This document shows, piece after piece, positions 7,535-35,484 of a stretch of DNA of 38,173 nucleotides. The DNA lies in IMG/VR virus record IMGVR_UViG_3300032315_001907, positions 1-38,173 of that record; one strand, given 5' to 3'. A program made the position numbers and the translations under genes. The stretch comes from a virus. The notes below the pieces were generated by a model. The model saw only the letters and a program-made list of their open reading frames with translations. It had not been told where the DNA came from and made no database searches. How positions within the stretch are numbered: the stretch's first letter is position 1; each line of letters opens with the position of its first letter.

Positions 7535-7570
7535 TAAAGTTGCGGTATTAGACGTGCACCTAAAAGGACA
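7535..7570 (-). promoter_or_regulatory. TGTCCTTT-type promoter-like element upstream of tail genes
   Basis: On the minus strand TGTCCTTT (7563-7570) is followed after 20 nt by CAACTTTA (7535-7542), a weak match to the Bacteroidota -7 box TAnnTTTG. It lies in the 213-nt gap between the large terminase and the 185-aa tail gene, and leaves a 17-nt leader before the ATG at 7517. The rest of that gap shows no ORF I can support. Confidence 0.5.
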
Positions 7571-7730
7571 GCCTTCCCAGGTTGGCTTTGCAAACATTAT
7601 GTGTTGTTGTTTTTGCGCAAGTGTTTGTTAATCATAGTATTTCCAATATGATTGCATGTATTTCACGGATCCGCCCACGGCTGCGCCTGTCGTGCAATTC
7701 AGAGAACAAGGCCCATTTTACGGATATATG

Positions 7731-9338
7731 CTACGATCGGGTTACTTTCGGATCGGGCAGCGATGTGTTGCGGAAGCGCAACAAGGCATAGAACTTACCA
7801 AACAATGCGGCATCGTTGGCATCTGATAGGTCAGTAGCTTCCTGCCTGGGGATACGCCCAGACCGTTCCGCGCTTTTATCCTTCTTCGTCTCCCCCATTC
7901 GCCCGGTAATCGCTTTTGCATTGCGCATGGATAAGTACAGCTCTTTGCAGTTGTCCTTGTTCATCTTGTACCTGGGCAAGCTCTTGTCCTGCTCTCGCAG
8001 TATTGCTTCCCACAGCAGGTGTTTAAGCCCATGCTGCGGGTTGGTTACGCCCGTAGTCATCAGCCTGACCTTCCACCCTCTCCTGGTGAGCTGGTCGCGT
8101 GCCTGCTCTGCACGCGTCCGGCTGGTGTTGCCAGTGCGCTGGTTGCCGGTGTTGTCGTACCACATTTCGATTTCACGCGGCTCATGGTATTGATAGTACT
8201 CCATGAAATCGTTGAAGAGGTCATCCTGTATTTTTTTCTCATCCCCGAGCACATACATGCTTTTCAGGGTACGATACTCATTGATGGATCGTAGGTATTG
8301 GTTCACCGTGAGACAGTTAATCGAGGCTCCCCAGTCAATACCCAGGATGAGCGGAACGCCAGAGATTAAGTCAGCATCGCCTCTGCAATCAACGGCCTGG
8401 CCTATCGCCTGGTAGTGCGCGTAGTTGTAGTTACTGTAGAGGTGCCGCTTAATGTCCAGCAAGGAATAGAAAGAGTTCCGTGTGAAGTTGGGTCGAATGT
8501 TTTTGTACTCGGCGTTGAATATCCACTGTGCGTAGGAGTTTTCCTCCGCTTCTTTTAGGTAGCCTTCCCGGAGGTTGTGCAGGTTGTGCTCGCAGGTCGC
8601 TGAAACGAAGGCCACCTGTCCAGGCATCTGCCTTGCTTTGGTCTCGTAGTCCACGAACCACTGCCCTTCGGGAGTCAGCGGCGTGGAGCTTGAAAAGAAT
8701 CGCGAGCCGAAGAACTGAGATCCTTTAAAAGCTTTGTTGGTACCGCGCAGGGTGGGGTCAGAATCCTGCTGTATTTTTTCATAGCTGAGCAATGCGGCTT
8801 CATCGCCTGCCAGCCAATCGGCGTTAAGGCCGCGCCCGTCGCCGGCGACATCCTGGCTGATCAGGTGTACCCCCATGCCATTCCAGAATTGGATGTAATG
8901 ATCTACCCTCTCCGGAGCCTGATAGGCACGCGTCCAGCTTTTTCTCCAGCCCGGTGGTGGATTTCTGCCGATGAAGTAATGAAGATCTTTGTACAGCCCG
9001 AAAAGCTCCAGGCCAGCGACCAGAGAGGGCACGATTCGCGTCAGGATGGATTGATAGGTAGGACCGATCATAAGCCCCGTACTGCGGGGCATTTCGGCAG
9101 CAATCTGTGCCCACCGGTATCCATACATGGTTGTCTTGCCGGTGCCTCTCCCCCACTCTACGCACAAAGTACGTTGCCTGGCCAGCGAAGCCACTACCTG
9201 TGGCACATTGAGCACCACTTTGCGTTTCATTGTCTGGCTTTCAATCTGACTGATCAGGCTTTCATAGTCTGCCGAGTTGCGGCGGTGTAGGCGATCTATC
9301 TCAGCCTTGATCGCTATTTGTTGCGGGTAGCTCAACAT
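7731..9338 (-). CDS. terL: Terminase large subunit (535 aa)
   Basis: This is the packaging ATPase-nuclease that drives DNA into the prohead. The Walker A motif GRGTGKTT is at residues 63-70, and the Walker B-like 'LAGDEAAL' has its acidic pair at 179-180. The RNase H-like nuclease begins with 'ILGIDWGAS' (Asp335) and later has 'MWYDNTGNQRTGN'. The length is normal for the family. The start at 9338 overlaps the small subunit by 38 nt. A later Met (residue 37) is possible but would remove an N-terminal segment that looks real. It is paired with the small subunit upstream, as in most tailed phages. Confidence 0.93.
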   Translation of the reverse strand: MLSYPQQIAIKAEIDRLHRRNSADYESLISQIESQTMKRKVVLNVPQVVASLARQRTLCVEWGRGTGKTTMYGYRWAQIAAEMPRSTGLMIGPTYQSILTRIVPSLVAGLELFGLYKDLHYFIGRNPPPGWRKSWTRAYQAPERVDHYIQFWNGMGVHLISQDVAGDGRGLNADWLAGDEAALLSYEKIQQDSDPTLRGTNKAFKGSQFFGSRFFSSSTPLTPEGQWFVDYETKARQMPGQVAFVSATCEHNLHNLREGYLKEAEENSYAQWIFNAEYKNIRPNFTRNSFYSLLDIKRHLYSNYNYAHYQAIGQAVDCRGDADLISGVPLILGIDWGASINCLTVNQYLRSINEYRTLKSMYVLGDEKKIQDDLFNDFMEYYQYHEPREIEMWYDNTGNQRTGNTSRTRAEQARDQLTRRGWKVRLMTTGVTNPQHGLKHLLWEAILREQDKSLPRYKMNKDNCKELYLSMRNAKAITGRMGETKKDKSAERSGRIPRQEATDLSDANDAALFGKFYALLRFRNTSLPDPKVTRS

Positions 9339-9903
9339 ACTCTGCCTCTTGCGTTGCGTTAAGGTTGACCACGCCTTTGGTGAGCATGGCCTTGATCATC
9401 TCTTCCATGCCTTCCGGCAGCATCAGGATATTAAGGCTGGGCGCGAGCCGCTCAAAGTCGGGCAGATCAGGATCCAGGCGGTCAATACCCGTTGCCCGGA
9501 TAAAGTTTTCCAGGGCCTTGTTCATGCCTTTCACGTCTTGCCGGCGCTTAGCTGTAGCCCACAAGAATTTTGCCATTTCAATCGCCTGTATCCTGGCGAA
9601 TTCTTTATGCGTCTGCTGTATCTGCCCAAAGATGCGCTGGGCGTCGTTGATGATGTTGTAGGCTGTGCGCTGCGCCACGTTATGTTCCTTTATGAGAACT
9701 CCTACAACGTAGGAGGTTGAATGCGCTTCCATCATCATCCCATACGCCATACGTACGGCGAAAAGGTACTTGCGCTCATCCTCACTCAGATCGGACTCCT
9801 CGATCTCATTCCGAAACATGCGCTGTATGCGCTCGAAATAAGTCAGCTTTTTCGTGGTTACTTGTTCGACATTCTTTGGGCTATCGCCTGGAATTCTGCT
9901 CAT
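9301..9903 (-). CDS. terS: Terminase small subunit-like DNA-binding protein (200 aa)
   Basis: A central helix-turn-helix-like segment ('VGVLIKEHNVAQRTAYNIIN', about residues 67-86) is followed by helical sequence suited to oligomerisation. It lies immediately upstream of the large terminase and overlaps it by 38 nt, the usual place of the packaging-site recognition subunit. Sequence alone does not prove the assignment; the HTH and position are the evidence. It overlaps the preceding coiled-coil gene by ATGA. Confidence 0.75.
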   Translation of the reverse strand: MSRIPGDSPKNVEQVTTKKLTYFERIQRMFRNEIEESDLSEDERKYLFAVRMAYGMMMEAHSTSYVVGVLIKEHNVAQRTAYNIINDAQRIFGQIQQTHKEFARIQAIEMAKFLWATAKRRQDVKGMNKALENFIRATGIDRLDPDLPDFERLAPSLNILMLPEGMEEMIKAMLTKGVVNLNATQEAEYVELPATNSDQG

Positions 9904-10565
9904 ACATTTTCGATTAAAAGTTCTTGATCCAATTGTTGAAGCTGCGCCTCTTTTACCGCCAGTTGGCTGGCCAGTTGGTCCTGTTCCTCCTGGGTTAGCC
10001 CTTCCTGTTTGAGCTGTTTTCGCAAGCGGTACACCTGGCTGATGACGCTATCCCTTTTCTTGATCTTCTCGACCGTTTCGCGCACTACTTTTTCTTTTTC
10101 AGAAAAAGGCACTTTCCCGTTTTTGTCGTAATCCTTGATCGCTTCATAGATGATGTCGAGCTGAGGCTCGATGATCTCCATGAGCTCGTGTGCCAGGGCG
10201 TAGAGCTGTTCTCTCCTTTCGGGCGATAGACCCTGCTGGCTGAGTATTACCATTTGCGCGTGGAGGAAGGATTCCCGTTTTTTCAGTGCTTTCCCTTGCT
10301 CGCGCAGACTGGTGACACTTTCCGGCTCGGGCTCGTTGGATGCTGCTTGAAGGGGCAGTTGTTGGGCAGATACCGTAACGGCGGGAAAGAGTGCCCGTAG
10401 CTCTGCTTCCAACATTTGGCGTATGCCTGGCGGAAGATACGCCCTTTGCAGCGCTTCCACATACCGCTGCATGTTTGGGCTTCCACCTGATCGCCTGATC
10501 AGATCTACCCCAGCCGCAAATGACCCTGGCAAAGAAAGCCATGCTTCTATTTCACGTTCGACCAT
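9900..10565 (-). CDS. Coiled-coil protein of the packaging cluster, unknown (221 aa)
   Basis: This is a highly charged helical protein. Long heptad-like stretches cover about residues 90-220, for example 'REQLYALAHELMEIIEP' and 'SQLAVKEAQLQQLDQEL'. I chose ATG 10565 instead of the upstream TTG 10571 because translation from it follows directly after the hairpin at 10578-10599. It overlaps the small terminase by ATGA. It may be a packaging or scaffold accessory; no family is recognised. Confidence 0.72.
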   Translation of the reverse strand: MVEREIEAWLSLPGSFAAGVDLIRRSGGSPNMQRYVEALQRAYLPPGIRQMLEAELRALFPAVTVSAQQLPLQAASNEPEPESVTSLREQGKALKKRESFLHAQMVILSQQGLSPERREQLYALAHELMEIIEPQLDIIYEAIKDYDKNGKVPFSEKEKVVRETVEKIKKRDSVISQVYRLRKQLKQEGLTQEEQDQLASQLAVKEAQLQQLDQELLIENV

Positions 10566-10577
10566 ACACAAACAAAT

Positions 10578-10599
10578 AACCCCACCATTCGGCGGGGTT
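10578..10599 (-). terminator. Intrinsic terminator or attenuator inside the head operon
   Basis: The minus-strand RNA forms a 9-bp stem with a GAAT loop, followed by ATTTGTTTG. One pair is G-U in the minus RNA but A-C in the plus RNA, so the structure is selected on the minus strand. The weak U tract suggests partial termination between the 75-aa gene and the packaging genes. Confidence 0.6.
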
Positions 10600-10624
10600 A
10601 AGTGAAAAATCCAAGTCCTAAGGT

Positions 10625-10852
10625 TTACACGCTTTGATTCGTTTCGTCCATCACTTTGGCCTTGGGCTTTTTTCGAACCTGTAGTTTGGAAAAGCCTTTG
10701 GCGTGCAACTGCCTTGCCTGAGCAAGGGTAAGTGTGTTCAGATTCACAAGGCCAAACCGCCCAAAATTTTGAACGGCTCCCCCCGTCCAGTTGACCAGTT
10801 CGTATTCCTGGGCAACTTCATCAGGGAGCAGGTTAGGCGTTGGCCGTTTCAT
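10625..10852 (-). CDS. Small basic virion-module protein, unknown (75 aa)
   Basis: A short protein with 'LTLAQARQLHAKGFSKLQVR' in its second half, a helix plus strand pattern. It overlaps the end of the 190-aa gene by 20 nt, so it is co-translated. Small ORFs right after a tail-tube gene sometimes encode tail assembly factors, but the similarity is positional only. The mature C-terminus is basic (KKPKAK). Confidence 0.65.
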   Translation of the reverse strand: MKRPTPNLLPDEVAQEYELVNWTGGAVQNFGRFGLVNLNTLTLAQARQLHAKGFSKLQVRKKPKAKVMDETNQSV

Positions 10853-11405
10853 CTATCCCGTGTTCTGCGGCGTCGTAAATGGGGCAAGTATACCCCGTGT
10901 TGGCGTACAAGGTGTAGCTCGTGCCTACCCGGTCGCCATTCGTGGCACCAAGCGCCATTTCAGAAGCTTCCACGAAGCACGGGTTGTCTTTGTTGCCGAC
11001 CACTACGTGCTCGCCGGATTTGGTTTTCACCATGAAAATCAGACATCCGGCATTGGCGGCGACCAGGTCGGCGAATTCCCGTTGCGCGGCGCTGGCACCG
11101 AGTACGAAGAACTCGAGCCTATTCACAAAGCCCTGGCCACCGATTTCCCCCTCGAGTGTATCCCTGACGTTCCCCGTATCCGTGAGGATGTTGAGTTTGC
11201 GCCAGAAGCCTTTTCCTGTAGGGGCACCGGTGAAGTTGAAAGGTTCATCCAGAATTTTGGAATCTCCTTGTGCCGTGCCACCTCCTTGCTCTTTTGTTTC
11301 CGGCCAAGCTGCGAGCTCACCGGCAAGGGTAAACCATGCGGTAAGCTGTATGCCAGGAGGGATGTTTGACCCGCATTGCCGGATCAGCGATTGTATTACT
11401 GCCAT
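10833..11405 (-). CDS. Putative major tail (tube) or head-surface protein (190 aa)
   Basis: This is a compact beta-rich protein without a signal peptide. A conserved-looking core 'VVVGNKDNPCFVEASEM' and 'GTSYTLYANTGYTCPIYDA' near the C-terminus matches a pattern I recall from Bacteroidota prophage structural proteins. The size fits a tail-tube subunit and the gene lies shortly after the major capsid. No defined domain is named, so tail tube is a reasoned guess; decoration protein is the alternative. Confidence 0.62.
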   Translation of the reverse strand: MAVIQSLIRQCGSNIPPGIQLTAWFTLAGELAAWPETKEQGGGTAQGDSKILDEPFNFTGAPTGKGFWRKLNILTDTGNVRDTLEGEIGGQGFVNRLEFFVLGASAAQREFADLVAANAGCLIFMVKTKSGEHVVVGNKDNPCFVEASEMALGATNGDRVGTSYTLYANTGYTCPIYDAAEHGIDETANA

Positions 11406-11429
11406 GATTAGTGGGGATTTGAGCTGCTA

Positions 11430-11858: not shown

Positions 11859-11888
11859 CTTTTGATTAATGTGGGGTGAAAGCCCCGG

Positions 11889-12191
11889 TTAGTAAAAGAG
11901 CAGCCAACCAGCTTTTACACTGGCTGCTTCCCCTATCATGGCCAAGGCGTCTTCTTTGCCCATGTTGGCCATTAGCGGGCATCGCGCAGCTTCTTCCTCA
12001 GTCAAGACTTTTTCCATGGCGATTCGGAACAACAACTTGGGCTCCAGCACACCCTGCTTGATCCTGATTTTTGGAATCGTTGGATCATAGCCTACCTGTA
12101 CTTTTACAGGGGTGGGATCATCCGGTTTTTCCAGAATCAATTCCAGTACTTCCGGGGTCTTGCTACTTTGAGCCGTGCGTTCTTTTGACAT
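11889..12191 (-). CDS. Small protein after the major capsid gene, unknown (100 aa)
   Basis: A soluble, acidic-to-neutral protein. A disordered N-terminus ('SKERTAQSSKTPEVLEL') is followed by strand-rich sequence and a C-terminal helix ('LTEEEAARCPLMANMGKEDA'). It starts 31 nt after the capsid stop and is read with it. Position suggests a head accessory, but no family is recognised. Confidence 0.68.
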   Translation of the reverse strand: MSKERTAQSSKTPEVLELILEKPDDPTPVKVQVGYDPTIPKIRIKQGVLEPKLLFRIAMEKVLTEEEAARCPLMANMGKEDALAMIGEAASVKAGWLLFY

Positions 12192-12221
12192 GTTTTGAGT
12201 TTGAAAGGGTGGAGAAACTGG

Positions 12222-13187: not shown

Positions 13188-13220
13188 AGCCAATTGGTTG
13201 AAAAGGTTAAAAAAATGGGG

Positions 13221-14486
13221 TTACATGGCTGCCGCCAAGGCTGCTTTTTTCTCGAAGGCATCCAGGGCGTCGGCCATTTGGACAGACGCCGGGTCGGAAG
13301 CCATAAACGCAGCCGTGGGAGGCTCGGCAGGTTGCTTCTTCCAGGCATCGAACTGCGTTTGCAGGTTGCTCAGATTGCCTTGGATTTTGCCCTGTTCCGT
13401 TTCCACGACCTGGAGTTGTTTTTCAATGGCCCCGAGCTTTTCGGAAACCATTTGGAGCCGGTCGTTCAGGTTGTCCAGCGATTGTACCTGATGCGTGAAG
13501 TCTTCCGGTTGGGCAATAGCACCTTCCAGCGCAGCAAGTTGCTGGGCATTCAGATATATGCCGCCATCAGCACTTTCCAGATCGTGCCCTAATACTGCGC
13601 TTAGGGCCGCGATAGTTTTTGCGCTCATTTGATTGGTTTGCATGGTGAATAAATTTCCGATCACCTGCCGTTCGGTAGCAAATCCATCAATCATGTTGAT
13701 GGTGAGCGCTTCTTGCGCATTGTATATTTGGCCTCGGTAGGCTTCTGCTAATACCAGGCTGGGTCGGAATTCTTTGACGGTAGTGATGAACTGCTGCGCG
13801 ACGGGGTTAAGGAGCTTGGCTTTGAGCGCTTCGTAATCTCCTTTGTCCGCATCCGTCCATATCTTATTTTTCAGGTCGCTTTGATCGGCTACCACCATGT
13901 GATAGACTGCGCCTTCTTTCTCCAACATCGGTTTGTAGTCCCACCAAGAGCTCATCGCGCCGATGGATCCGACAATGTCGTTGCCTTCGTTCGCGTAAAT
14001 CTTGTCACATGCACTGGCAATGTAGTAGGCGGCACTACCGCACATCCCGCATACATGGGCATGAATGGGTTTTTTGACCTCGTTGCGGATGAAACGCGAG
14101 AACGTTTCTACATACGTCGCCTCCCCTCCAGGGCTGTCAATGCGAAGCACATGCCCTATCACGTTCTCTTTCGCATCATTCTTGCGCATGTCTTCCATGA
14201 TTGACATGATACCTACGGAACACCAGCCATCCTCTTTTAGAATCACGCCTTGCAATGGGTACACGGCTACCTTCATTTCATTGCTATCGGCATCAGATAC
14301 GTGTAGCTCGTGTTCATAATCATCGTCTTCCCAGCCGAGCGATACCAAGTATGGCTTACTGCCGCCCTCCGTCGGGAAGGTGACATCTTCGCCCTGGGCA
14401 AGGCGGGCCACAAAAGGCAAGTACGCGCTCGCAGCAGTAGGGTTGATTGCCCAGGCGGATGTAATGATCTTTCGAAGTAGGTTCAT
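13221..14486 (-). CDS. Prohead protease, S49/ClpP-like, with scaffold-like C-terminus (421 aa)
   Basis: Residues about 70-270 form an S49-type serine protease. They include 'VLRIDSPGGEA' (113-123), the nucleophile region 'CGSAAYYIASACDKIYA' with Ser151, 'GSIGAM' (173-178), and lysines near 206-208 in the area of the SppA general base. Residues about 290-400 are helical coiled coil ending in an Ala-rich tail ('FEKKAALAAAM'). This matches protease-scaffold fusions like lambda gpC/Nu3, which mature the capsid. It lies directly upstream of the major capsid. A TGTCCTTT promoter-like element ends 33 nt before the ATG. Confidence 0.88.
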   Translation of the reverse strand: MNLLRKIITSAWAINPTAASAYLPFVARLAQGEDVTFPTEGGSKPYLVSLGWEDDDYEHELHVSDADSNEMKVAVYPLQGVILKEDGWCSVGIMSIMEDMRKNDAKENVIGHVLRIDSPGGEATYVETFSRFIRNEVKKPIHAHVCGMCGSAAYYIASACDKIYANEGNDIVGSIGAMSSWWDYKPMLEKEGAVYHMVVADQSDLKNKIWTDADKGDYEALKAKLLNPVAQQFITTVKEFRPSLVLAEAYRGQIYNAQEALTINMIDGFATERQVIGNLFTMQTNQMSAKTIAALSAVLGHDLESADGGIYLNAQQLAALEGAIAQPEDFTHQVQSLDNLNDRLQMVSEKLGAIEKQLQVVETEQGKIQGNLSNLQTQFDAWKKQPAEPPTAAFMASDPASVQMADALDAFEKKAALAAAM

Positions 14487-14490
14487 AGCT

Positions 14491-14526
14491 CAAAAATCTA
14501 TGCTATTTCTTTGGCTTAAAAGGACT
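14491..14526 (-). promoter_or_regulatory. TGTCCTTT-type promoter-like element upstream of protease/capsid genes
   Basis: On the minus strand AGTCCTTT (14519-14526, one mismatch) is followed by 20 nt and then GATTTTTG (14491-14498). Four nt later comes the protease ATG at 14486. Spacing to the start codon is identical to that at 17018, 15018 and 35444. Confidence 0.55.
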
Positions 14527-15018
14527 TTAGAGGATAGGGGCATAGCCGTATGCCCTCCTGACCGTGTTGCCGCTCCATGAAATGGAATAGGCGTTCAGCC
14601 CATTGGCCTCAGAGGTGCTGCCATCGGCAGAAAATTCCAGCCCTTCATCCGGTGAGCCGATCAGCCAGGTGTTTTGGTTCCGGGCGTTGAGCTTGAGGAT
14701 GTAGCGATACCCGGTCATTTCCTCCAAAATTCCGGCTACCTCCGGGCGCATCCCCGGCAGTATGCCAGTAATTTGTTGGCTGAAGTAGTTCCCAAATTCG
14801 GTTTGTTGCTGCTTTTCATCCCATATTTTCCGGTTGCTTAGGGAAAAGGCTTCCATCCACTGCCCTTCCGACAGGGGAATTTCTTCCTGCCAGTTCCAGG
14901 CTCCGGAAATAATCCGGCGAAATGCCGGCTTGTCCACCCACGTGATCGGTACGTACTGGATTTTTTGAAGGCCACCCAGATTGATGGCGCAAAAAGTGGA
15001 AAGCGATGTCAGTGCCAT
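14527..15018 (-). CDS. Virion-module protein, unknown (163 aa)
   Basis: I start this at ATG 15018 ('MALTSLSTF'). An upstream GTG at 15045 would lengthen it by nine residues but would cross the promoter-like -7 box. The protein is mixed alpha/beta, with 'QYVPITWVDKPAFRRIISG' early and 'WLIGSPDEGLEFSADGSTSE' late, followed by an aromatic strand. It precedes the protease gene by 40 nt. The late part resembles strand patterns of Bacteroidota phage structural proteins, but no named family is recognised. Confidence 0.68.
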   Translation of the reverse strand: MALTSLSTFCAINLGGLQKIQYVPITWVDKPAFRRIISGAWNWQEEIPLSEGQWMEAFSLSNRKIWDEKQQQTEFGNYFSQQITGILPGMRPEVAGILEEMTGYRYILKLNARNQNTWLIGSPDEGLEFSADGSTSEANGLNAYSISWSGNTVRRAYGYAPIL

Positions 15019-15022
15019 AGGG

Positions 15023-15058
15023 CAAAAATGGCCCGGCACGGCCACAACCCAAAGGACA
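15023..15058 (-). promoter_or_regulatory. TGTCCTTT-type promoter-like element upstream of the 163-aa gene
   Basis: Minus-strand TGTCCTTT (15051-15058), a 20-nt spacer, CATTTTTG (15023-15030), then 4 nt to ATG 15018. A second GGACA (15069-15073) lies just upstream. The short gap 15059-15115 has no other visible feature. Confidence 0.55.
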
Positions 15059-15115: not shown

Positions 15116-15622
15116 CTATTTCGGGGCAGGACTGGGCGCTAAACGGAAGATGGGAAGATTTTTTTCACTGCGGAGGCGGTATGAGCCTTTTTTCAGTGCG
15201 TCAAAACTGATATCGTCGAGCAAATCTAAGTCGGCCATAAACTGGTGGATCACATCCGCTTCGCTCACGCCGTAGTTGCGCACCGCTAATATGCGCTGCA
15301 CCAACATCTCGTGGAGGTTGCGCTGAAGATAGGTATTGAAGAAGCGGATCGCCTGGGCGGATACAAAAATCTTGTTGTGCTTGAACTGCGTAATCGTGAA
15401 TGAAATCGGTACGTGGTCATTGTACTGTTCAGAAGCATCTGAGTTGGTGGCACCACTGCCGTTGAAGGTCATCTTCCCCTCCATCAGCTTGCTCATCACC
15501 ATGCACACTTCCCTATTTTCGTAGACCGTGAAATCAATGATGGTATTGTAGGGGATGTTTTCGCGCCAGTAGAAATACTTTTTGAGGTAGCGCTTCATCG
15601 GAAAGGCCATCTGCATATTCAT
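15116..15622 (-). CDS. Unknown protein between lysis and head modules (168 aa)
   Basis: A charged, mainly helical protein. The first part is basic ('MKRYLKKYFYWREN') and a helical C-terminal half contains 'NYGVSEADVIHQFMADLDL', which could be a small helix-turn-helix or helical bundle. It follows the lysis terminator and precedes the 163-aa gene. A regulatory role at this module border is possible but unsupported. The first ATG (15622) is used; ATG at 15616 or 15598 is also possible. Confidence 0.65.
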   Translation of the reverse strand: MNMQMAFPMKRYLKKYFYWRENIPYNTIIDFTVYENREVCMVMSKLMEGKMTFNGSGATNSDASEQYNDHVPISFTITQFKHNKIFVSAQAIRFFNTYLQRNLHEMLVQRILAVRNYGVSEADVIHQFMADLDLLDDISFDALKKGSYRLRSEKNLPIFRLAPSPAPK

Positions 15623-16153: not shown

Positions 16154-16431
16154 CTGTTCAATTTTAGTTTTTCGAGCTCTTGTACGCGCTTATCCAGCTC
16201 GTCGAGCCATTGGTTAAGTTCTTTTTGTTCCTGCTCAATGTAAGTGTTCTTGGTCTGGAGCTCGCTTTGGCCAAGCGCCAGCTCCGTCACCTTCTCTTTG
16301 ATGAATGCCACATCGTTGCGTATATCCTGGGCAAGGAAGGAAAGTACCCCTACCAGGAGGCTCAGTAGCCCCGGCAATATCCACTTGGAAACACTGGCCT
16401 GGATGTCTTTTGGCGGCAACGGAGGCGTCAT
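16150..16431 (-). CDS. Lysis-cassette membrane protein with coiled coil (93 aa)
   Basis: One TM segment ('WILPGLLSLLVGVLSFLA', residues 17-34) is followed by a long charged coiled coil (about residues 40-90, 'IEQEQKELNQWLDELDKRV'). It sits between endolysin candidate and holin with ATGA overlaps on both sides. The plan (N-terminal TM plus coiled coil) fits an inner-membrane spanin (Rz-like) or an XhlA-like accessory holin. I see no embedded outer-membrane spanin gene, so the choice is open. Confidence 0.72.
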   Translation of the reverse strand: MTPPLPPKDIQASVSKWILPGLLSLLVGVLSFLAQDIRNDVAFIKEKVTELALGQSELQTKNTYIEQEQKELNQWLDELDKRVQELEKLKLNR

Positions 16432-17018
16432 GTGAAATCGCTTTTTTCAAACAGAGTATAAGTGAAGGAGGTAGATTCTCTTTTGATCGCAGCATCCACA
16501 ATAAGCATGAACAAGTTGAAGTCTGCTTCCCGCTGGAACACTTGGCAGCCGGCACTATATCTATCCACCGATTCGGTGAGCGTACCTGCTTTGTGGATGT
16601 TGATGCCAAACATACCTTCCTGTATGGTGGCCGGGTCAAGATCGTACTGCGTGTCGCGGTTCGCATCGCGGAACACTCGCACCGGCTTGAGTCGTTGGCA
16701 CAATGCCTCATACTTTCCCGCGTGCAAGTCTTTTTTGTAGGCATCCACGTATTGCCCAGGTACCAATATGGCAGTGCCCTTGGGATTGACCGGGCCCCGG
16801 AGCATGGAAAGGCCGGGCATGGTAGTGCCCGGCCACTGCCTTAAAACCCATTCACTGCTCGAATTGCGAAAACACACACACAAGAAGTCACTGAACTTGT
16901 TTGCAGGGCCGTAGTTGCGCACCCCGAAAATGTTCAGCCGGTAGGGGCTACCATCATCCAAAAAGGTATAGCCCTTTTGGGCATATACCGTCCGTACCGC
17001 TTCTGCTATCACGTTCAT
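16428..17018 (-). CDS. Putative endolysin with SAGCQVF motif (196 aa)
   Basis: This is the first gene of the lysis cassette. It carries 'LNIFGVRNYG' (residues 28-37), 'NPKGTAILVPGQYVDAY' (78-94), 'FGINIHKAG' (137-145) and 'SAGCQVF' (154-160). The His...Ser-x-Gly-Cys arrangement resembles L,D-transpeptidase/carboxypeptidase catalytic sites (YkuD-like HxxxxxxxxSxGC), so Cys157 with His142 may act on the peptidoglycan peptide. That link is inference from motif and position; I do not recall a characterised phage member. It has no signal peptide, so it needs the holin. It starts exactly 33 nt after a TGTCCTTT element and follows a strong terminator. Confidence 0.7.
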   Translation of the reverse strand: MNVIAEAVRTVYAQKGYTFLDDGSPYRLNIFGVRNYGPANKFSDFLCVCFRNSSSEWVLRQWPGTTMPGLSMLRGPVNPKGTAILVPGQYVDAYKKDLHAGKYEALCQRLKPVRVFRDANRDTQYDLDPATIQEGMFGINIHKAGTLTESVDRYSAGCQVFQREADFNLFMLIVDAAIKRESTSFTYTLFEKSDFT

Positions 17019-17022: not shown

Positions 17023-17058
17023 CAAATTTAGCCGCTCCAAAGGCTGTACAAAAGGACA
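17023..17058 (-). promoter_or_regulatory. Promoter of the lysis/late operon (TGTCCTTT class, best -7 match)
   Basis: Minus-strand TGTCCTTT (17051-17058), a 20-nt spacer, TAAATTTG (17023-17030, perfect TAnnTTTG), then 4 nt to ATG 17018. If initiation is about 5 nt after the -7 box, the mRNA starts at or next to the ATG (leaderless). It lies directly after the early terminator, as a late promoter should. Confidence 0.7.
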
Positions 17059-17086
17059 AAAAAAGCCGGCCACAAACGTGGCCGGC
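17058..17086 (-). terminator. Strong intrinsic terminator at the end of the early operon
   Basis: In minus RNA a perfect 9-bp stem GCCGGCCAC/GTGGCCGGC (17065-17086) with a 4-nt loop is followed by seven T (17058-17064). It lies 30 nt after the stop of the 87-aa gene at 17117 and separates early from lysis transcription. Confidence 0.9.
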
Positions 17087-18212: not shown

Positions 18213-18604
18213 AGAGTCCTTGTCCAATTCTGGTTTTTTAAGTGGACTTTTGGACTGCCTGGGTTAAATAATCTGATTATCAGGGTCTTATACAGTCCAA
18301 ACGGTTTGGACTGTTTGGACTGCTTTTTGGACTGTTTGGACTTTTGGACTGTTTTTATTGAAAATCGTCATAAATTGTTGATTTACAGGCAGTCCAAAAG
18401 TCCAAACGGCTTTTTTTCGGGTGGACTTTGTTATATGCTCATAAGTATTTGAAATACATACACTTACAAAAGGCAGTCCAAAAGTCCACTGCTTTTACCA
18501 AAATTTATAGTGGTCTCCTTTTCAAAAAAAGAAGAAAAAAATATATAATGTTTGGACTTGTTCGATTTTTGACACAAAATCAAACAAGTCCAAACATTAT
18601 ATAT
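18213..18604. other. Candidate replication origin: iteron-like GGACT cluster
   Basis: The 403-nt gap after the primase stop holds 9 copies of GGACT (18244, 18252, 18308, 18317, 18329, 18338, 18346, 18423, 18554) and 7 of AGTCC (18215, 18294, 18391, 18399, 18475, 18483, 18587). Twelve of these are the longer TTTGGACT/AGTCCAAA. One pair forms a perfect dyad (18293-18313). Chance predicts about one pentamer here. Interspersed AT-rich DNA and the adjacent primase-helicase favour an iteron origin; an operator array is the alternative. No ORF is supported. Confidence 0.7.
18541..18604 (-). terminator. Long palindrome/terminator at the primase stop codon
   Basis: A 22-bp perfect inverted repeat (18541-18562 with 18583-18604), one C/A mismatch, then six more pairs around the loop TGACAC. 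The primase stop TAA (18597-18599) is inside an arm. In minus RNA the stem is followed by seven T (plus-strand A at 18534-18540), as in a terminator. Each arm contains one TTTGGACT iteron. Confidence 0.8.
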
Positions 18605-21637: not shown

Positions 21638-21673
21638 TAAAAGTTGCCCGTTTTGATAGCAGTGCAAAGGACA
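21638..21673 (-). promoter_or_regulatory. TGTCCTTT-type promoter-like element upstream of the primase
   Basis: Minus-strand TGTCCTTT (21666-21673) is followed after 19-20 nt by CAACTTTT/AACTTTTA (21638-21646), almost the same box as upstream of the 185-aa tail gene. An 8-bp inverted repeat TTGATAGC/GCTATCAA (21653-21660 with 21676-21683) encloses the TGTCCTTT box, suggesting a regulator site. Confidence 0.5.
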
Positions 21674-28873: not shown

Positions 28874-29011
28874 CTAAACCGATACAAGGACGGCTCCCAC
28901 TGCCGTGAAGTCTCCATCTTCCGAGACGGCCTTGCCATCCTGACCACCAAATGCCGCGATTTCCTCAGTTTTATCCAGTACATCCTGGCCTTCTTTTCTG
29001 CCAAAAACCAT
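28874..29011 (-). CDS. Possible 45-aa protein after the truncated deaminase
   Basis: An ATG at 29011 opens a 45-codon frame, different from that of the truncated deaminase. Its protein-like sequence includes 'DVLDKTEEIAAFGGQDGKAV' and ends 'FTAVGAVLVSV'. It could be a small gene or the shifted continuation of a damaged one. It does not resemble the missing C-terminal half of a dCTP deaminase. Low confidence. Confidence 0.35.
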   Translation of the reverse strand: MVFGRKEGQDVLDKTEEIAAFGGQDGKAVSEDGDFTAVGAVLVSV

Positions 29012-29243
29012 AGGTTTTGTAAAAATATCCAGTAGTATGGAGCACAATACCTTCCCAGGGAATTTTCTTGATCTGAATCTTATTGTGCTTTTTGGCGTCC
29101 AGCTCATGGTCTATATATACGCCGATGTATTCTCCCAGGTGTACATCGTAGGAATTGGGGTTGAGGCAGTCGCGGCGAAATGGGTGTATGACGATTTGCC
29201 CTTTTTCAATAAGCTGTTGAATTTTTGATTCGCTCAATATCAT
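28971..29243 (-). pseudogene. Truncated dCTP deaminase/dUTPase-fold protein (90 aa)
   Basis: The start 'MILSESKIQQLIEKGQIVIH' followed by 'LNPNSYDVHLG' is the hallmark N-terminus of dCTP deaminase. From about residue 70 ('GIVLHTTGYFY') similarity ends and the frame closes soon after. The catalytic Arg/Glu motifs and trimer core of the family (usually about 170-190 aa) are therefore absent. ATG 29243 lies 10 nt after the tape-measure stop. It is either a remnant, or a phage protein that kept only the N-terminal subdomain for another use. A frameshift to the other minus frame does not restore the family sequence. Confidence 0.65.
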
Positions 29244-29253
29244 TGGAAAGATT

Positions 29254-32184
29254 TTACAAGGTGAAGCCGCTTGACTCGTTGATTTTTTTGTAGCGCCGCC
29301 AGATCTCCACGACGGTCTGATCATCCACTCGCGCATACATGGTGTCCAGCTTGGTGCTTATTTCTTGCAGCAAGGCCAGTCCTCGGGCATCGAAAGCCGT
29401 CGGTGCCGGTGCGATTGCATTGTCTATGGTGGCCCCACCGGTGGCAAACTGGTTGACGCGATCCATGCGTATGTTTTCAATGGCGCGCACGTAGTTCATG
29501 ACCTTTGGGTTGCGCAGGTCTTCATTCGCCACGAAATACTCAGCGCCTTTTTCGGAGGCCAAAACAAGGCTGGGTGTGCCGGGCAGCATACCGGTGCCTG
29601 GCCGGCCCAGATACCGGGCATTATAGGTTTTGCCGTCGCGCTCACCGATCACATCGTAATAGCCTCCGGTGTATCGCTGAGGGGCATCTGGTATTTTTTG
29701 GGTGAGCAATTGTTTGGCCTTGGCGATATTGGTCAGGACGGTGGCGATCCCCGTGGCAACTTTGATCGCGAAATCGAATGGCGTTATGCTGGTAGATGCG
29801 GCGGCGGCGGTAATGCCTGATATAGCCTTGGCGGTGTCGAAGCCGATTTGCGCCAGGGTGATGCCTTTCTGGAATTCGGCAGCTACCTTACTGTCACCAG
29901 CGAATGCAAAAATCACATCTGACATCGCATTGCCGATCGCGCTAAATGCCTGCTGTGCCTGCTGCAACTGCCGTTCCTGCTCTGCGATTTGTTTGTCTAT
30001 CTGCTCGCTCGTGGCTTTGGCCTGCTCCTCGGCGAACTTCTTTTGGATGTTCTTTTTTTCCTCATCGTACTTTAGTGTGATGGCCGTGGTGTCAACGCCT
30101 AATTTTTCGGCCAAGGCAAGCATTTCTTGGTAGTGGGTTTGGAGCTGTAGAAGCTCTTTTTCCTGCTCGGAAAGCACAAAATCATTGACCATGGATTGAA
30201 GATTCTGCTCCATGGCGAGTTTATCCTGTATGCGTTTTAAGGCTGCTTGGTCTTGTGCTTCTTGAAGCTTTACCCGGTCTTCTTCCTCCTTTTTCAACTG
30301 AGCCTCGAGGAGCTCATCTGCAAGCGCATCTATGGCTTGTTGCTTGTATCGCTCGAGCTCAATGCGCTGTTCGGTGGCACCTTTTACTTTTTTGGCTTCG
30401 AGCTCTTTGACCAGGGCGATTTCTTTGTCGAATTCGATGCGCAGGCGTTCTATCTTCTGTTCATCCTCGGAAAGCTTGGCCATTTGGTTTTCGACCTTGT
30501 ATTTTTCGAGGATCTGCTGGATGTGCTTTTGGTGTTTTTCGATTTCGTCGGCTTCGCTTTTTGCCTGTGCCTGGGCTCTTTTACGTGCTTGCTCTGCTGC
30601 CTGTTCTGCCAGGCGTTGTCTTTCCTCTCTTGCCAAACGATCTGCTTCTGATTCGCCCTGGTTTTTTCCTCCTTCGGTGGGCGTTGCGCCGCTGAGGGAT
30701 ACGCCCATCTTGCCGGCAAGTACTTGGTATTTTTCTGTCTGTTGATTTAGTTTTTCCTGTTCCTTAGCATTGGCTTCAATTTGATTTTTGATTTTTGTCA
30801 GCTTTATACTGGCGTCTGTATAGCCAGTAGTTTGTACGCCAGTAATGATCTGTGTAGTGGCAAATGATTTTTTACTGGCTTCATCAAATCGTTGTTGGGC
30901 TTTTGTAAGCTCAATTTGAAGCTCTAACTCACGCGTTTTGGCTTCAACTTGGCGTTGTTGAAGCTCACCCATTTGCTTTTCAAACGCCATAAGCGTTATC
31001 CGCTCTTGGAATGCCTTATTGGCTTGGTCTTGTGCGGATGTGATCTGATTAAGGTTATCGGTCTCTTTAATAAGGTTGGGCAAGTACTGTGCATACTTGC
31101 CGTTGATTTCATCAATAAGCTTCTTTCTGCTTTCCTTAGAAATATTGCCTCGCTTGAGGGTTTCCATTTCTAAGTTAAACTGTTCTTTCAGATCCATTAC
31201 AGATCGTATTGCACGATCATTTGCAGCGCTGTTGGCATCTACGTTAGAAGACAGTATCTGAAAAAATTCACCCAACTCGATAGCAGTACTCACCAACCTT
31301 TCCATTACTGGTAGAAGGACTATGGCAAGATTTTCTTGTAGCTGTTGGAACTTAGCCAGTAGTTCTGCTTGTCGCCGACCAACCATATCCGAATTTCCCG
31401 CATAAGCCGTCTGCGCATCAATGGATTTCTCCATAATGATATTGAGGGTAGCTTGTGCTTGTGCTTGCTCCAAAGCGGATCCTGTAAGCTTGTCAAGCCC
31501 TTCTGCTGCAAGCCTGGCATCTACATCTGCCTGGGAAATGGATATTCCCAATGCCTTGAGCTCTTCGCGTTCGCCCAGCAATGCGTTGGCAAGTTTGTCA
31601 GATACTTCCTGTGCGGTTATTTGACCACCTGTCCACTCGCTGAGGGCTCCAGATAAGTTGACCAGTTGCGCCGATATGTCGGCGGCTTCTTTGCGTTGAA
31701 ACCCCATAGGGATGAGCAGATCACCTATGGCGGCAGCGGCATTGATATACTCGGAAGTGGTAAGCCCCATGGCGGTAGCATTGGCCTGGGCTTCGCGGGT
31801 AATGCTGGGGAGGGCTTCTCCGAATACCGTGCGCGCTTTTTGGGAGAGCAGCTCCATCTGTGCCCCAAGATCAAAAAGCTTTTTGCCGTACGCAATGATC
31901 ACGTCGGCTGCCAAATAGCCTGCGACGTAATTTATTACCGTACTTGCCCCAGCTTTCACCTTTCCCCAGGCATCCTCTACGGTACGAACTCTGTCGTGGT
32001 GCTCGCGGATCAACCCATTGAGCTTTTGCAGCTCGCGCACTTTATTTTCATACTCATCAGTACCCATGGTCATCCGTTCCAGCTCGTTGGAGACCTTACG
32101 CTTTTCGGCTGCAATGGATTTGAGCGTATTGTTTATTTCCCGGCCATTGATGTAAATGTTGACCGCCCTCCTCGTTTCTGCCAT
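29254..32184 (-). CDS. Tail tape measure protein (976 aa)
   Basis: It sets the length of the tail tube and delivers DNA. Residues about 60-300 resemble the TP901/phage-tail tape-measure core ('GLTTSEYINAAAAIGDLLIP', 'LVNLSGALSEWTGGQITAQE'). Long coiled coil covers about 320-740 and is very rich in Glu/Gln/Lys/Ala. A hydrophobic segment lies near 750-850 ('IGFDTAKAISGITAAAAS'), followed by a C-terminal 'KLDTMYARVDDQTVVEIWRR'. At about 0.15 nm per residue the tail would be about 146 nm. It follows the tail-completion gene by 2 nt. Confidence 0.92.
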   Translation of the reverse strand: MAETRRAVNIYINGREINNTLKSIAAEKRKVSNELERMTMGTDEYENKVRELQKLNGLIREHHDRVRTVEDAWGKVKAGASTVINYVAGYLAADVIIAYGKKLFDLGAQMELLSQKARTVFGEALPSITREAQANATAMGLTTSEYINAAAAIGDLLIPMGFQRKEAADISAQLVNLSGALSEWTGGQITAQEVSDKLANALLGEREELKALGISISQADVDARLAAEGLDKLTGSALEQAQAQATLNIIMEKSIDAQTAYAGNSDMVGRRQAELLAKFQQLQENLAIVLLPVMERLVSTAIELGEFFQILSSNVDANSAANDRAIRSVMDLKEQFNLEMETLKRGNISKESRKKLIDEINGKYAQYLPNLIKETDNLNQITSAQDQANKAFQERITLMAFEKQMGELQQRQVEAKTRELELQIELTKAQQRFDEASKKSFATTQIITGVQTTGYTDASIKLTKIKNQIEANAKEQEKLNQQTEKYQVLAGKMGVSLSGATPTEGGKNQGESEADRLAREERQRLAEQAAEQARKRAQAQAKSEADEIEKHQKHIQQILEKYKVENQMAKLSEDEQKIERLRIEFDKEIALVKELEAKKVKGATEQRIELERYKQQAIDALADELLEAQLKKEEEDRVKLQEAQDQAALKRIQDKLAMEQNLQSMVNDFVLSEQEKELLQLQTHYQEMLALAEKLGVDTTAITLKYDEEKKNIQKKFAEEQAKATSEQIDKQIAEQERQLQQAQQAFSAIGNAMSDVIFAFAGDSKVAAEFQKGITLAQIGFDTAKAISGITAAAASTSITPFDFAIKVATGIATVLTNIAKAKQLLTQKIPDAPQRYTGGYYDVIGERDGKTYNARYLGRPGTGMLPGTPSLVLASEKGAEYFVANEDLRNPKVMNYVRAIENIRMDRVNQFATGGATIDNAIAPAPTAFDARGLALLQEISTKLDTMYARVDDQTVVEIWRRYKKINESSGFTL

Positions 32185-32186
32185 GG

Positions 32187-32633
32187 TTAGGTTTTGATAG
32201 TGGTGTTGATGATGCCTGGCACAATGATGCGGATATTGCCCACGGCCATATCGGCATAGTTGTTGGCAATATGGTCAGCCAGTACATAATACGCCCTGCC
32301 CAGTGACGGTTGGATCCATGGGCGCTTATTGGCTACGGCGGCTGCCGATTCTCTTTTCCGGCCTTTCCCTACGCCATGCTCCAGGAATATCCCGTAGTAC
32401 AAAAATGAAAACCGGATGGCGTCAATGTCGCCACCGCGCATTTTCACCGATCCTTTAATGCTCGCGGCCAGTTGAGATTGCCTTCCCTCGGTACTCTTCC
32501 TGGCGTTTACTTTGGAGTGCATTCCCATAGCGGCCAATCGGAAAAGCATCTGCTTTTTCGTGGCATTGGTCCAGTTGCGCAGTTCAGTGATGAACAGCTT
32601 CTGGCGTTCTTCGGTCAGAGGGGTAGGGGTCAT
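32187..32633 (-). CDS. HK97 gp10-like tail completion/neck protein (148 aa)
   Basis: I start this at ATG 32633 ('MTPTPLTEERQ'), because it overlaps the stop of the 352-aa gene as ATGA; the longer reading from 32696 would overlap it by 67 nt. The middle has 'FLYYGIFLEHGVGKGRKRES' followed by 'RPWIQPSLGRAYYVLAD', the HK97 gp10/tail-completion pattern (beta strand, EHG, RPWIxP). It precedes the tape measure by 2 nt, as expected of a neck or tail-completion factor. Confidence 0.75.
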   Translation of the reverse strand: MTPTPLTEERQKLFITELRNWTNATKKQMLFRLAAMGMHSKVNARKSTEGRQSQLAASIKGSVKMRGGDIDAIRFSFLYYGIFLEHGVGKGRKRESAAAVANKRPWIQPSLGRAYYVLADHIANNYADMAVGNIRIIVPGIINTTIKT

Positions 32634-33688
32634 AGTCTTACGATTCCTTTCGTAGTTGATTCCAAGGCGTGAGAGCAATACGGCCACGACCCGCAACAGC
32701 TTTGGCGGTCGCGAGTTGCCGAAACGATATCATTGGCCTCCGAACTTTCTTGCTGGTCGGCAACATAAATGAAATTGAACTCGGCATATAGTGGAAAATC
32801 GTTGAGGTGATCAATCAGATAGCTTTTCACTTGAGCGATATAGCGATTACCCATCAGCTCCTCGCGGCGCATCTTGAAGCCGAGCGCGGAAGCAATAGGA
32901 GGAGTGGTTTTTTCGTAGCCTTGCGGCTCCAAGCGCTCCGTTTGCACCACGTGTGCCCCTTCGATGCGTACCCATAATCTGGCAGTGGCTTCCATCATAG
33001 CCATATTGGCGACTGCCCTTTGGCATAGCGCCACCAACTGGCGCTCCGTGTCGCTTAGATTGTTTTCCTGGATCTTGGAAATCAAGTCTGCATACTGATC
33101 CTTACCCATCAGCGGGACCAGCGCAAAGTTTTCTACGTCGGAGATGATAGGGCGGATGACCTCGAACGTGTACCGGCTCAGATAGCGGGAGTAGGCACCG
33201 CGCATATCTTCTGCCAGGTTGAGGATACACCCGAACAAGTTTTGGAAAGCATTGCTGTCACGCCAACTTGGATAATCATCCTTGTTGGCGTACAAAAATT
33301 TCAGCATCCATTCTATAGATTCATAGCCGGTGTGCAGCATGTGATCCTTGTACGCATTCTCCTGGTACTTGTAGGGGGTTTTCGCATTTTCGCCCTCGAC
33401 GCGAAACAAGCCGGCTTCACCAAATTGCACCGATGCTACCTGCGTATATTCGTAGAGGGATAAGTAGGCCAATGGTCGCTGCACAAAGGGGAGGATAGCT
33501 TCCTGGGCAGGGCTTAAATCATCTTCGTCATAAGCGTCTTTCAGCTCTTGCCACAATGGGCCAAGTGCCGGCACCAGGTATTTCTGCGCTGCCATGAACA
33601 TGGTAGGGGAGATGCTGGCTATTTCCATGCTGAGGTTGGCCCCACCACCTACAAAAGATTTGACGTCTGAAATTTCAGCAAAAAGCAT
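32630..33688 (-). CDS. Head-tail adaptor-like structural protein (352 aa)
   Basis: A mostly helical protein directly after the portal (5-nt gap). It begins 'MLFAEISDVKSFVGGGANLS' and contains repeated helical motifs ('QRPLAYLSLYEYTQV', 'YESIEWMLKFLYANKDDYPS'). It matches a DUF6712-like group that I recall from Bacteroidota phages, unverified. The position portal-adaptor-completion-tape measure supports a connector role. The C-terminus is unusual, with a Cys-rich 'RDRQSCCGSWPYC' that could reflect a late frameshift. Confidence 0.66.
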   Translation of the reverse strand: MLFAEISDVKSFVGGGANLSMEIASISPTMFMAAQKYLVPALGPLWQELKDAYDEDDLSPAQEAILPFVQRPLAYLSLYEYTQVASVQFGEAGLFRVEGENAKTPYKYQENAYKDHMLHTGYESIEWMLKFLYANKDDYPSWRDSNAFQNLFGCILNLAEDMRGAYSRYLSRYTFEVIRPIISDVENFALVPLMGKDQYADLISKIQENNLSDTERQLVALCQRAVANMAMMEATARLWVRIEGAHVVQTERLEPQGYEKTTPPIASALGFKMRREELMGNRYIAQVKSYLIDHLNDFPLYAEFNFIYVADQQESSEANDIVSATRDRQSCCGSWPYCSHALESTTKGIVRL

Positions 33689-33693
33689 ATCCT

Positions 33694-35103
33694 TTAGTTT
33701 TCTACGACCAACGTTGTGTCACTGGGTTTTAGCCCTGATTCCTGTAGGTTAGTCGTCGTATGAGTGGTGTGATCTATGAAAAAGGTGATATCCCAGTTCT
33801 CCGGGTCAGTCTGAGAGTTGAAAGCTGCAATCCAGTTGAGGGTTTCCAGTACGATTTCCTGCTCGATGGTGTTCAGCGTGATGCCGGTATTGTAGCTTTC
33901 CCGCTGATCGCTTCCGGAACCAGCGCCCATTTTCCCGCCTTCTGTTGCGAGACCTACCTGGGAAGGGTGCAGGCCAAGCCCTTGCACAATTTGTGCATCG
34001 GCTTTCTCGGAAGATGGGACCCAGGCGTTGGACTTGATCTTATCATCCACGGCAAGGATTTCTATTTTGCCCAGTGGCTCCTGGGTGGCGTGATCCTGCT
34101 GAAATACCGTGGCGATGGATGCGAAGGCATTGTCTGTGCCAGAGAGGGTTTGGTTGATTTTTTTGATCAGGTCGTCAATGAGAGATTCGCGCTGCTCGTG
34201 GGTGAATGACTGCCAGTCAGGGTAGCGAATTTGGAAGTATGTATCTGGAATGAGAATGTGGTACTTGAGCACTATCTGGTTTCTCATCATGGCATTCACG
34301 ATGCGAGGCACTTGACTGCTGACATCCATCCACCCATCGTTGCGGAAAAGGCCAAGCCAAAACGGACGGGCGTAGTATACTATGCCAGGCGTTTCGAAGC
34401 GGCTGTGCCAGGCGAATTTATTTCCGCGCAAGCCCTGGAGGAATCCATACTGATCATACATATTCAGCATGGGTACTTTTCTGATCTCCGGTTCCTGGGG
34501 CGTCCAGCCCTCCGCAAACTTTGGCGTGTATAGCAGGTACTCTGAAAGCATAGATCTTTTGTTCTGCACAGAGAGACGGCAGAACTCGGCAGGCTTATGA
34601 TACACCGATGCAATCTGCGTCCGATCATTGGTAAGTACCAGCTCCGAAAAAGCATTCATGTAGAAGCGGTAATCCGCAAACTGAGCAGGCAGATAGCTGG
34701 TATTGATGCGGTTCAATCGCAACCACCGGTCAATGACAGGGATGCGGGCGCGTTTGGGGCGGGTCGTTTCGTCATTGTCGTAGATATCGCGATTGCGAAA
34801 ATAGGCAATGCCATTTCCCCACATCATCTGTACGAGCTTGTACACGGCCTGGCCGGCCATAGGCACTTCATATATCTTAGCCCGGATACGAGTGGGCAAT
34901 AGGTCGTCTTCTCCCCACGGGGCCCAGTTATACCCAGCGGTAAGGCTCTCTTCATACATGGCCAAGGCAGGCTTAGGCATCGTATCAATAGGGCTGCGCT
35001 CCCCGGGCACTTCTGCTTTTACCTTGAAATGGCGGTCGTCGGGGAGGATGACCTTATGCTTTCCTGTTTCGTCCTGTATGACGTGTAGCGTTGTAGTACC
35101 CAT
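33694..35103 (-). CDS. Portal protein (469 aa)
   Basis: It forms the dodecameric ring at one capsid vertex through which DNA enters and leaves. The diagnostic part is 'GLHPSQVGLATEGGKMGAG' (about residues 383-401), followed by 'SDQRESYNTGITLN'. The N-terminal half has the 'NGIAYFRNRDIYDNDE' wing region and many aromatic strands. The length is normal. It starts 5 nt after the 111-aa gene and is followed by adaptor and tail-completion genes. It is remote from capsid and terminase (about 18 kb), with fibre genes in between, an unusual order. Confidence 0.88.
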   Translation of the reverse strand: MGTTTLHVIQDETGKHKVILPDDRHFKVKAEVPGERSPIDTMPKPALAMYEESLTAGYNWAPWGEDDLLPTRIRAKIYEVPMAGQAVYKLVQMMWGNGIAYFRNRDIYDNDETTRPKRARIPVIDRWLRLNRINTSYLPAQFADYRFYMNAFSELVLTNDRTQIASVYHKPAEFCRLSVQNKRSMLSEYLLYTPKFAEGWTPQEPEIRKVPMLNMYDQYGFLQGLRGNKFAWHSRFETPGIVYYARPFWLGLFRNDGWMDVSSQVPRIVNAMMRNQIVLKYHILIPDTYFQIRYPDWQSFTHEQRESLIDDLIKKINQTLSGTDNAFASIATVFQQDHATQEPLGKIEILAVDDKIKSNAWVPSSEKADAQIVQGLGLHPSQVGLATEGGKMGAGSGSDQRESYNTGITLNTIEQEIVLETLNWIAAFNSQTDPENWDITFFIDHTTHTTTNLQESGLKPSDTTLVVEN

Positions 35104-35108
35104 AGCTG

Positions 35109-35444
35109 CTAAGGTGTTACCTGTTCACCGTTGAACTCGACAATCAGGGGGATATGAATTTTTTTGATGACAATGGTTGGGATTCCATCCGACCAGATTT
35201 GAATGTTACGGGTGTACCACTTGCGATGGTGGGGATTTTTTTGTAGGCCGATGCGTTGGTATTGTTTCAGCTCTTGCTGGGTGAGCTCTCTGCCGCCTTT
35301 GTCGCGGTGGTTGTGCTTGAGCATTTTTCCACTGAGCTCTATGATGTCGCCGCCCTCTTTCCTGTTGTGGTCGTACGTGACCACCTTACAGGAAAATACC
35401 CGCTCGGAATCCATGTAGTTGAGTATTTGGCGAAAGCTGTACAT
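35109..35444 (-). CDS. Small basic protein before the portal, unknown (111 aa)
   Basis: A basic, strand-rich protein with two His/Lys-rich stretches ('KMLKHNHRDKGGRELTQQEL', 'KNPHHRKWYTRNIQIW'), which suit nucleic-acid or phosphate binding. It precedes the portal by 5 nt. Its ATG lies inside the 3' arm of a 16-bp perfect inverted repeat, and 33 nt after a TGTCCTTT element. Name unknown; head-closure or connector function is possible. Confidence 0.68.
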   Translation of the reverse strand: MYSFRQILNYMDSERVFSCKVVTYDHNRKEGGDIIELSGKMLKHNHRDKGGRELTQQELKQYQRIGLQKNPHHRKWYTRNIQIWSDGIPTIVIKKIHIPLIVEFNGEQVTP

Positions 35445-35484
35445 ACATGCAAGTTAGGCAGCATGTATGTACAGCTAAAGGACA
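35435..35484 (-). promoter_or_regulatory. TGTCCTTT element plus 16-bp palindrome covering a start codon
   Basis: Minus strand: TGTCCTTT (35477-35484), 20 nt, TAACTTGC (35449-35456), then ATG 35444. A perfect inverted repeat AGCTGTACATACATGC ... GCATGTATGTACAGCT (35435-35450 with 35461-35476, 10-nt loop) overlies the spacer, the -7-like box and the start codon. It could be an operator or a translation-blocking hairpin. Confidence 0.62.

Follow-up and report, generated by a model that had tools for sequence, protein, structure and literature searches.

A late-promoter class of Bacteroidota phages and a covarying, previously unannotated protein family as its proposed activator

Among the described phage systems that come closest to the one considered here, the MotA/AsiA system of T4 middle promoters relies on a phage DNA-binding protein whose box near -30 stands in for the -35 element, the -10 element still being read by the host sigma factor (PMC6755090). 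In phage Mu, which has the activators C and Mor of late and middle promoters, the phage-encoded C serves several late promoters with weak core elements from a site upstream of -35 (PMC4461284). The primary promoters of Bacteroidota, which depend on sigma-A (sigma-ABfr), are characterised by a TTTG element at -33 and a TAnnTTTG element at -7, the latter spanning positions -12 to -5 (PMC9723704). Bacteroidota are major members of gut and marine communities, and in the open-access literature that we searched no description of late-gene activation in their phages could be found.

The DNA under study (the window, 38,173 nucleotides in total) is a virus record of IMG/VR. As it carries a terminal repeat of 123 bases (positions 1-123 and 38051-38173), the record represents a 38,050-bp circle. 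It codes for integrase, Cro/C1-type repressor, primase/helicase, head protease, terminase, tail fibre and endolysin-like genes, and for a protein that is here called REG (Table 1). A preliminary description had claimed that an 8-mer recurs on the minus strand in six intergenic gaps, that a -7-like box follows each copy after 19-20 nt, and that four ATGs lie exactly 33 nt from the 8-mer and 4 nt past the -7 box. All six sites, their letters and the four start codons held, and the spacing is exactly 20 nt at five of the six, the 21666 site permitting either reading. The first-base variation seen at 14519 is also present in other phages, and homologues of the small gene that starts at 35444 head the same promoter in many of them. 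The further claim that each copy heads a module turned out to be a slight overcount, as the copy ahead of the primase/helicase gene is doubtful: since its -7 box is the weakest of the six and the related phages mapped lack a counterpart at this place, it is possibly fortuitous. That the recurrence is not due to chance held as well. The 8-mer alone is only moderately enriched within the window (5 copies versus 1.47 expected, with 3 of 100 shuffles reaching 5), the pair of box and strict -7 box is far above chance (3 versus 0.02 expected), and the related phages put the matter beyond doubt.

Table 1. Features of the window relevant to the promoter class. Promoter positions relative to +1 are predicted.
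Feature	Position	Strand	Remarks
Gene 3' of the 7563 promoter, followed by tail genes	6960..7517	-	
Box TGTCCTTT	7563..7570	-	-7 box CAACTTTA at 7535-7542; predicted +1 at 7530, 13-nt leader, ATG 7517
Head maturation protease (peptidase S49), first gene of late module	13221..14486	-	
Box AGTCCTTT	14519..14526	-	-7 box GATTTTTG at 14491-14498; ATG 14486 (head protease) at predicted +1
Gene directly 3' of REG, late orientation	14527..15018	-	ATG at predicted +1; the 15018 start is an internal ATG of the listed ORF 14527-15045
Box TGTCCTTT	15051..15058	-	-7 box CATTTTTG at 15023-15030; ATG 15018 at predicted +1
REG, 168 aa, proposed late-gene activator	15116..15622	-	Upstream of and nearest to the 15051 box
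Predicted C-terminal helix-turn-helix of REG, residues 121-153	15164..15262	-	Recognition helix 140-153: D141, K145, R149
Endolysin-like gene	16428..17018	-	phrog_33083 lysis, phrog_3000
Box TGTCCTTT of endolysin-like gene, predicted -40 to -33	17051..17058	-	-7 box TAAATTTG at 17023-17030; ATG 17018 at predicted +1
Intrinsic-terminator-like hairpin GCCGGCCACGTTTGTGGCCGGC followed by TTTTTT, running straight into the 17051 box	17059..17086	-	Basis: sequence
Box TGTCCTTT ahead of primase/helicase gene, doubtful	21666..21673	-	Weak -7 box, CAACTTTT after N19 or AACTTTTA after N20; ATG 21617
Small gene, 111 aa, heading portal module	35109..35444	-	
Box TGTCCTTT	35477..35484	-	-7 box TAACTTGC at 35449-35456; ATG 35444 (small gene before portal gene) at predicted +1

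Some other repeats and remnants in the window deserve mention in their own right. A perfect 16-nt inverted repeat (AGCTGTACATACATGC / GCATGTATGTACAGCT, 10 nt apart, 35435-35476) starts directly after the 35477 TGTCCTTT box and encloses both the -7 box and the start codon; one could imagine that it represents an operator or a hairpin on the first codons. Five copies of the 9-bp repeat GTTTGGACT (18304-18354), which might be replication-origin iterons, are found in the large gap that follows the primase gene, and three 174-bp tandem repeats (4200-4739) lie within the tail-fibre gene 2322-5048. Finally, a short ORF at 28971-29336 resembles part of a dCTP deaminase (121 aa compared with a profile of 303 positions) and is apparently a fragment, adjoining the C5-methyltransferase gene.

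The primase and terminase of the window, when used as probes of viral contigs, retrieved no relatives, and the promoter pattern proved to be the better probe. A scan of 2.9 million viral contigs for TGTCCTTT-N20-NANNTTTG-N4-ATG returned at least 119 stretches, which range from 32 to 64% G+C and are followed by a long open frame in nearly all cases. The preliminary description had proposed that related phages be searched for the pair, and TGTCCTTT-N20-NANNTTTG was indeed found at the same spacing in 40 of 40 whole related phage contigs, with 1-7 sites each and on only one strand per phage, whereas the reversed control pattern had no matches in the same 40 contigs. Where the -7 box is exact, it follows the 8-mer after 20 nt in 173 of 177 sites, and conservation is confined to the 8-mer and the -7 core. 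As would be expected of a late regulon, the same box precedes several late modules and does so on the late strand only. Both the promoter class and its geometry are shown by computation. The idea, already put forward in the preliminary description, that the 8-mer marks a family of phage promoters or serves as an activator box instead of the -33 element is supported by a pattern that is phage-specific, strand-coherent and rigidly spaced; the variant boxes and the covarying protein described below were beyond its reach.

Measured against the Bacteroidota sigma-A promoter, the -7 element is met, with NANNTTTG at a fixed spacing, and this core matches host sigma-A in phages of every box type, although C or G is commoner than T as the first base of the -7 box, unlike in TAnnTTTG. 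TTTG at -33, in contrast, is not found in these promoters: the box ends with TTT at -35 to -33, and the base that follows TGTCCTTT is G in merely 7% of cases. Some -7 boxes read TTGC, namely TAACTTGC in the window (35449-35456) and CATCTTGC in L162 (2475 and 10520), and are similar to the SM5 motif TAnnTTGY of F. psychrophilum (PMC9723704). In 40 of 243 sites a terminator-like hairpin runs up to the box, compared with 8 of 729 random places, from which we conclude that many of the modules are separate transcription units. Hairpins within the spacer that overlap the -7 box were likewise considered and dismissed, as they show little or no enrichment (23/243 versus 48/729).

If the -7 box is placed from -12 to -5, the 8-mer comes to lie at -40 to -33 and a gap of 4 nt puts the A of the ATG at +1. 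A start codon at exactly this predicted +1, 4 nt after the -7 box, is present in 101 of 248 sites (41%; 99 of them ATG). The start codons show a second mode at 15-24 nt past the -7 box and are hardly ever less than 3 nt away from it. For comparison, leaderless mRNAs make up 5.5% in F. psychrophilum (PMC9723704), and 5' UTRs under 10 nt account for 3.7% in a published comparison for B. thetaiotaomicron. The inference of leaderless mRNAs in the preliminary description therefore fits the published sigma-A geometry, the 5' ends themselves remaining predicted. That the late mRNAs of these phages are often leaderless is thus inferred from sequence alone, without any 5'-end data.

The protein family that accompanies the promoters, REG, was previously unannotated and comprises members of about 160-200 aa. 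It is the sole non-structural family present in all 19 whole phages (18 and the window); the other universal families are structural or packaging proteins, head and tail families being equally universal. REG was also detected in 39 of the 40 TGTCCTTT contigs, so that its co-occurrence with the promoter class is shown by computation. The remaining contig, a 31-kb record (G040, L506-L507), has three TGTCCTTT promoters and no detectable REG, and might be a fragment or a phage in which the regulator has been replaced. The REG gene is located directly before the late block, on the late strand, upstream of most boxes and not beside the CI-like repressor; in the window, it is preceded by the promoter of the endolysin-like gene and by the doubtful box of the primase. 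The window protein is a divergent, long-branch member of the family (best identity 21%) and was placed in it by profile.

No match to REG was found in Pfam, NCBIfam, PHROGs (17 members scanned) or PDB sequences. In the same Pfam, NCBIfam and PHROG scans of 17 members a Mor-family domain was absent, as were sigma region 2/4 domains except for one stray NCBIfam match (E 0.053) in a single member. Weak matches to the helix-turn-helix (HTH) domains of transposases (TnpE, Mu I-beta; E above 1) are in line with an HTH in REG and provide no evidence of kinship. Modelling of two distant members with AlphaFold2 (mean pLDDT 85.6 and 85.3) predicts the same architecture for both, in which a strand-helix part at the N terminus is followed by a long central helix and an HTH at the C terminus, and no second DNA-binding region is evident in the models. 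Foldseek searches with these models retrieved no solved relative and, among viral models, a single match, Leef1_39 of Polaribacter phage Leef_1.

The association also holds in searches that start from the protein. Loci picked by REG similarity alone have boxes downstream and on the same strand in all six cases with downstream sequence, and most of a second set of REG-picked loci also carry downstream boxes. Those without TGTCCTTT mostly have one-letter variants that are repeated within the phage, with 2-6 copies each of TGTCGTTT, TGTCATTT, TGTCCTAT, CGTCCTAT and GGTCCTTT, a range into which the TGTCTTAA box of Flavobacterium phage FPSV-F7 also falls. These variants were found by 8-mer counts at a fixed offset without any prior motif, and no such repetition was seen on the opposite strand. 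A marginal REG match (L212) has no box. Scans with the variants added further TGTCTTTT, TGTCGTTT and TGTCATTT phages, and REG is present in most of their long, multi-site records. Phages with divergent REGs use variant boxes in a concerted manner (TGTCGTTT, TGTCTTTT, TGTCATTT, TGTCCTAT).

Base 5 of the box covaries with the predicted recognition helix of REG, the positions of which are numbered here from the residue aligned with D141 of the window protein (position 1). With C5 in the box, the helix has D/E at position 1 and K/R at position 5 in 43 of 43 phages, and with G5 it has K/R/T at position 1 in nine of nine. A5 phages have Q or M at position 5, most T5 phages have Q at position 5 and W just before position 1, and R149 (position 9) is nearly invariant. 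No other column of the entire protein is as strongly associated with C versus G as position 1. Two Pedobacter prophages even form a near-minimal pair (L164, ...PFENLKRWYYRER with C5, versus G042 C1, ...PFLNMKQWYFRER with A5). In held-out TGTCCTTT phages the position-1 rule is kept in about 17 of 20; of the exceptions, one in fact has TGTCCTCT as its box, and the other two, G035 (Asn) and G038 (His), have retained TGTCCTTT and do not fit. Three TGTCTTTT phages and FPSV-F7 keep the acid plus base in the helix.

The covariation as such is shown by computation, and the box type follows the REG tree with 9 changes compared with a shuffled mean of 27.6 (0 of 200 shuffles as low), A5 boxes having arisen twice. 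These counts are, however, inflated by clade structure. A single clade, moderately supported (81/87), comprises the nine G5 phages, which probably go back to one origin rather than to nine independent events, so that only a few independent switches are informative about position 1, namely one to G5 and one to the A5 of G042. It thus cannot be ruled out that box and REG merely share a history, both travelling with the phage lineage.

With regard to the hosts, 296 Bacteroidota genomes revealed no promoter class of this kind. A host class was rejected, as 67 of the 296 contain scattered single matches and the reversed control matched about as often; only G041 departs from this, with six sites within 22 kb of one prophage. 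The restriction of the class to phages is therefore shown by computation. On one host contig (G572:C10), two nearby prophages (690501-710500 and 733001-753000; L202 and L203) have different REGs and different boxes, TGTCGTTT and TGTCCTTT, that match them, which means that the reader of the box is phage-encoded and excludes a specificity encoded by the host. In this context, Microcystis phage Mea-Yong924-1 (L199, MZ447863) may also be mentioned: as it has a REG homologue, TGTCCTTT boxes and -7 elements of the Bacteroidota type, its true host could possibly be a Bacteroidota companion of the cyanobacterial culture.

From our point of view, REG is very likely an activator of late genes, which recognises the -40/-33 box where the host would have its -33 element and leaves the -7 box to host sigma-A, although no binding or expression data exist. 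REG would be made from the end of the early region and would bind TGTCCTTT at -40 to -33 through its C-terminal HTH, thereby keeping the host RNA polymerase at promoters in which region 2 of host sigma-A recognises the -7 box NANNTTTG, and it would take over or share the place of the usual -33 contact. Each box would then start one late module (protease/capsid, small gene and portal, tail, or lysis), and transcription would often begin on the A of the ATG to yield a leaderless late mRNA. The binding of the box, activation as opposed to repression, the contact with sigma or RNA polymerase and the mRNA 5' ends are all inferred. A bolder reading would see in REG a one-protein form of sigma appropriation with a short decodable code (helix position 1 and base 5), which substitutes for the -33 reading of sigma-A and moves much of the late programme to leaderless mRNAs, which are rare in these hosts; the balance of the evidence tips, if only slightly, against going that far.

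Other explanations can be imagined, each of which we regard as very unlikely. An alternative sigma factor of the host, for example of the ECF kind, could read both boxes and be borrowed by the phages, and the rigid spacing of two boxes indeed resembles a sigma promoter. However, such a class is missing from the 296 host genomes scanned, and the box type differs between the two prophages on one contig and follows the REG gene of the phage. REG could also be sigma-like itself, a divergent subunit of the phage by which the box and the -7 element are both recognised; the fixed spacing and the preference for C/G over T in the first base of the -7 box might speak for this. Against this stand its small size, the lack of any Pfam, NCBIfam or PHROG sigma domain, a -7 core that matches host sigma-A whatever the box type, and models without a second DNA-binding region.

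Alternatively, REG could act as a late-gene repressor over the -33 region, with host sigma-A alone driving the promoters. The position would be suitable for this as well, and the TTT of the box overlaps the place of the host TTTG; yet the REG gene heads the late block on the late strand instead of neighbouring the CI-like repressor, and sigma-A alone would be faced with -7 boxes that are non-consensus in their first base and no TTTG left at -33. It could finally be argued that another phage protein reads the box and that REG merely travels along, as co-occurrence cannot separate linked genes and the head and tail families are just as universal. The universal families besides REG are, however, structural or packaging proteins, and it is the predicted recognition helix of REG that holds the top box-associated column, including in the Pedobacter pair.

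With REG taken as the activator, the findings have several implications. As the promoter class is recognisable from sequence alone, late operons and their start sites become predictable in Bacteroidota phages and prophages, and with REG there is a family of candidate activators whose phages differ widely in G+C content. The natural switches in specificity offer a ready test of which residue reads which base, and the at least five box types constitute an orthogonal activator-promoter set of potential use in organisms with few genetic tools.

Compared with the known systems, the likeness to T4 MotA/AsiA is met by geometry only, in that an upstream sigma element is replaced by a box and the downstream element is kept. 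The REG box spans -40 to -33, no AsiA partner of REG is known, and REG has no Pfam, fold or PDB match to MotA, homology to neither MotA nor AsiA having been found; moreover, the genes concerned are late in the case of REG and middle in that of MotA, and the host sigma is that of Bacteroidota. With C/Mor of phage Mu the system would share a phage-encoded activator (activation by REG being inferred) that acts on several late promoters with weak core elements, whereas its box is a single non-palindromic 8-mer over -33 and no Mor model matches. By any test made, REG thus belongs to neither the MotA nor the Mu C family. An isolated counterpart exists in Polaribacter phage Leef_1 (Helgolandviridae), which has the REG homologue Leef1_39 and six TGTCCTTT on one strand with none on the other, both the promoter class and the role of Leef1_39 being unannotated there. 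With the primary promoter of Bacteroidota, finally, the phage promoters share the -7 core and the place of the upstream element. They depart from it in three respects: a strict 8-mer that depends on the type of phage serves as the -33 element, the -7 box often begins with C or G, and a start codon at the predicted +1 is common.
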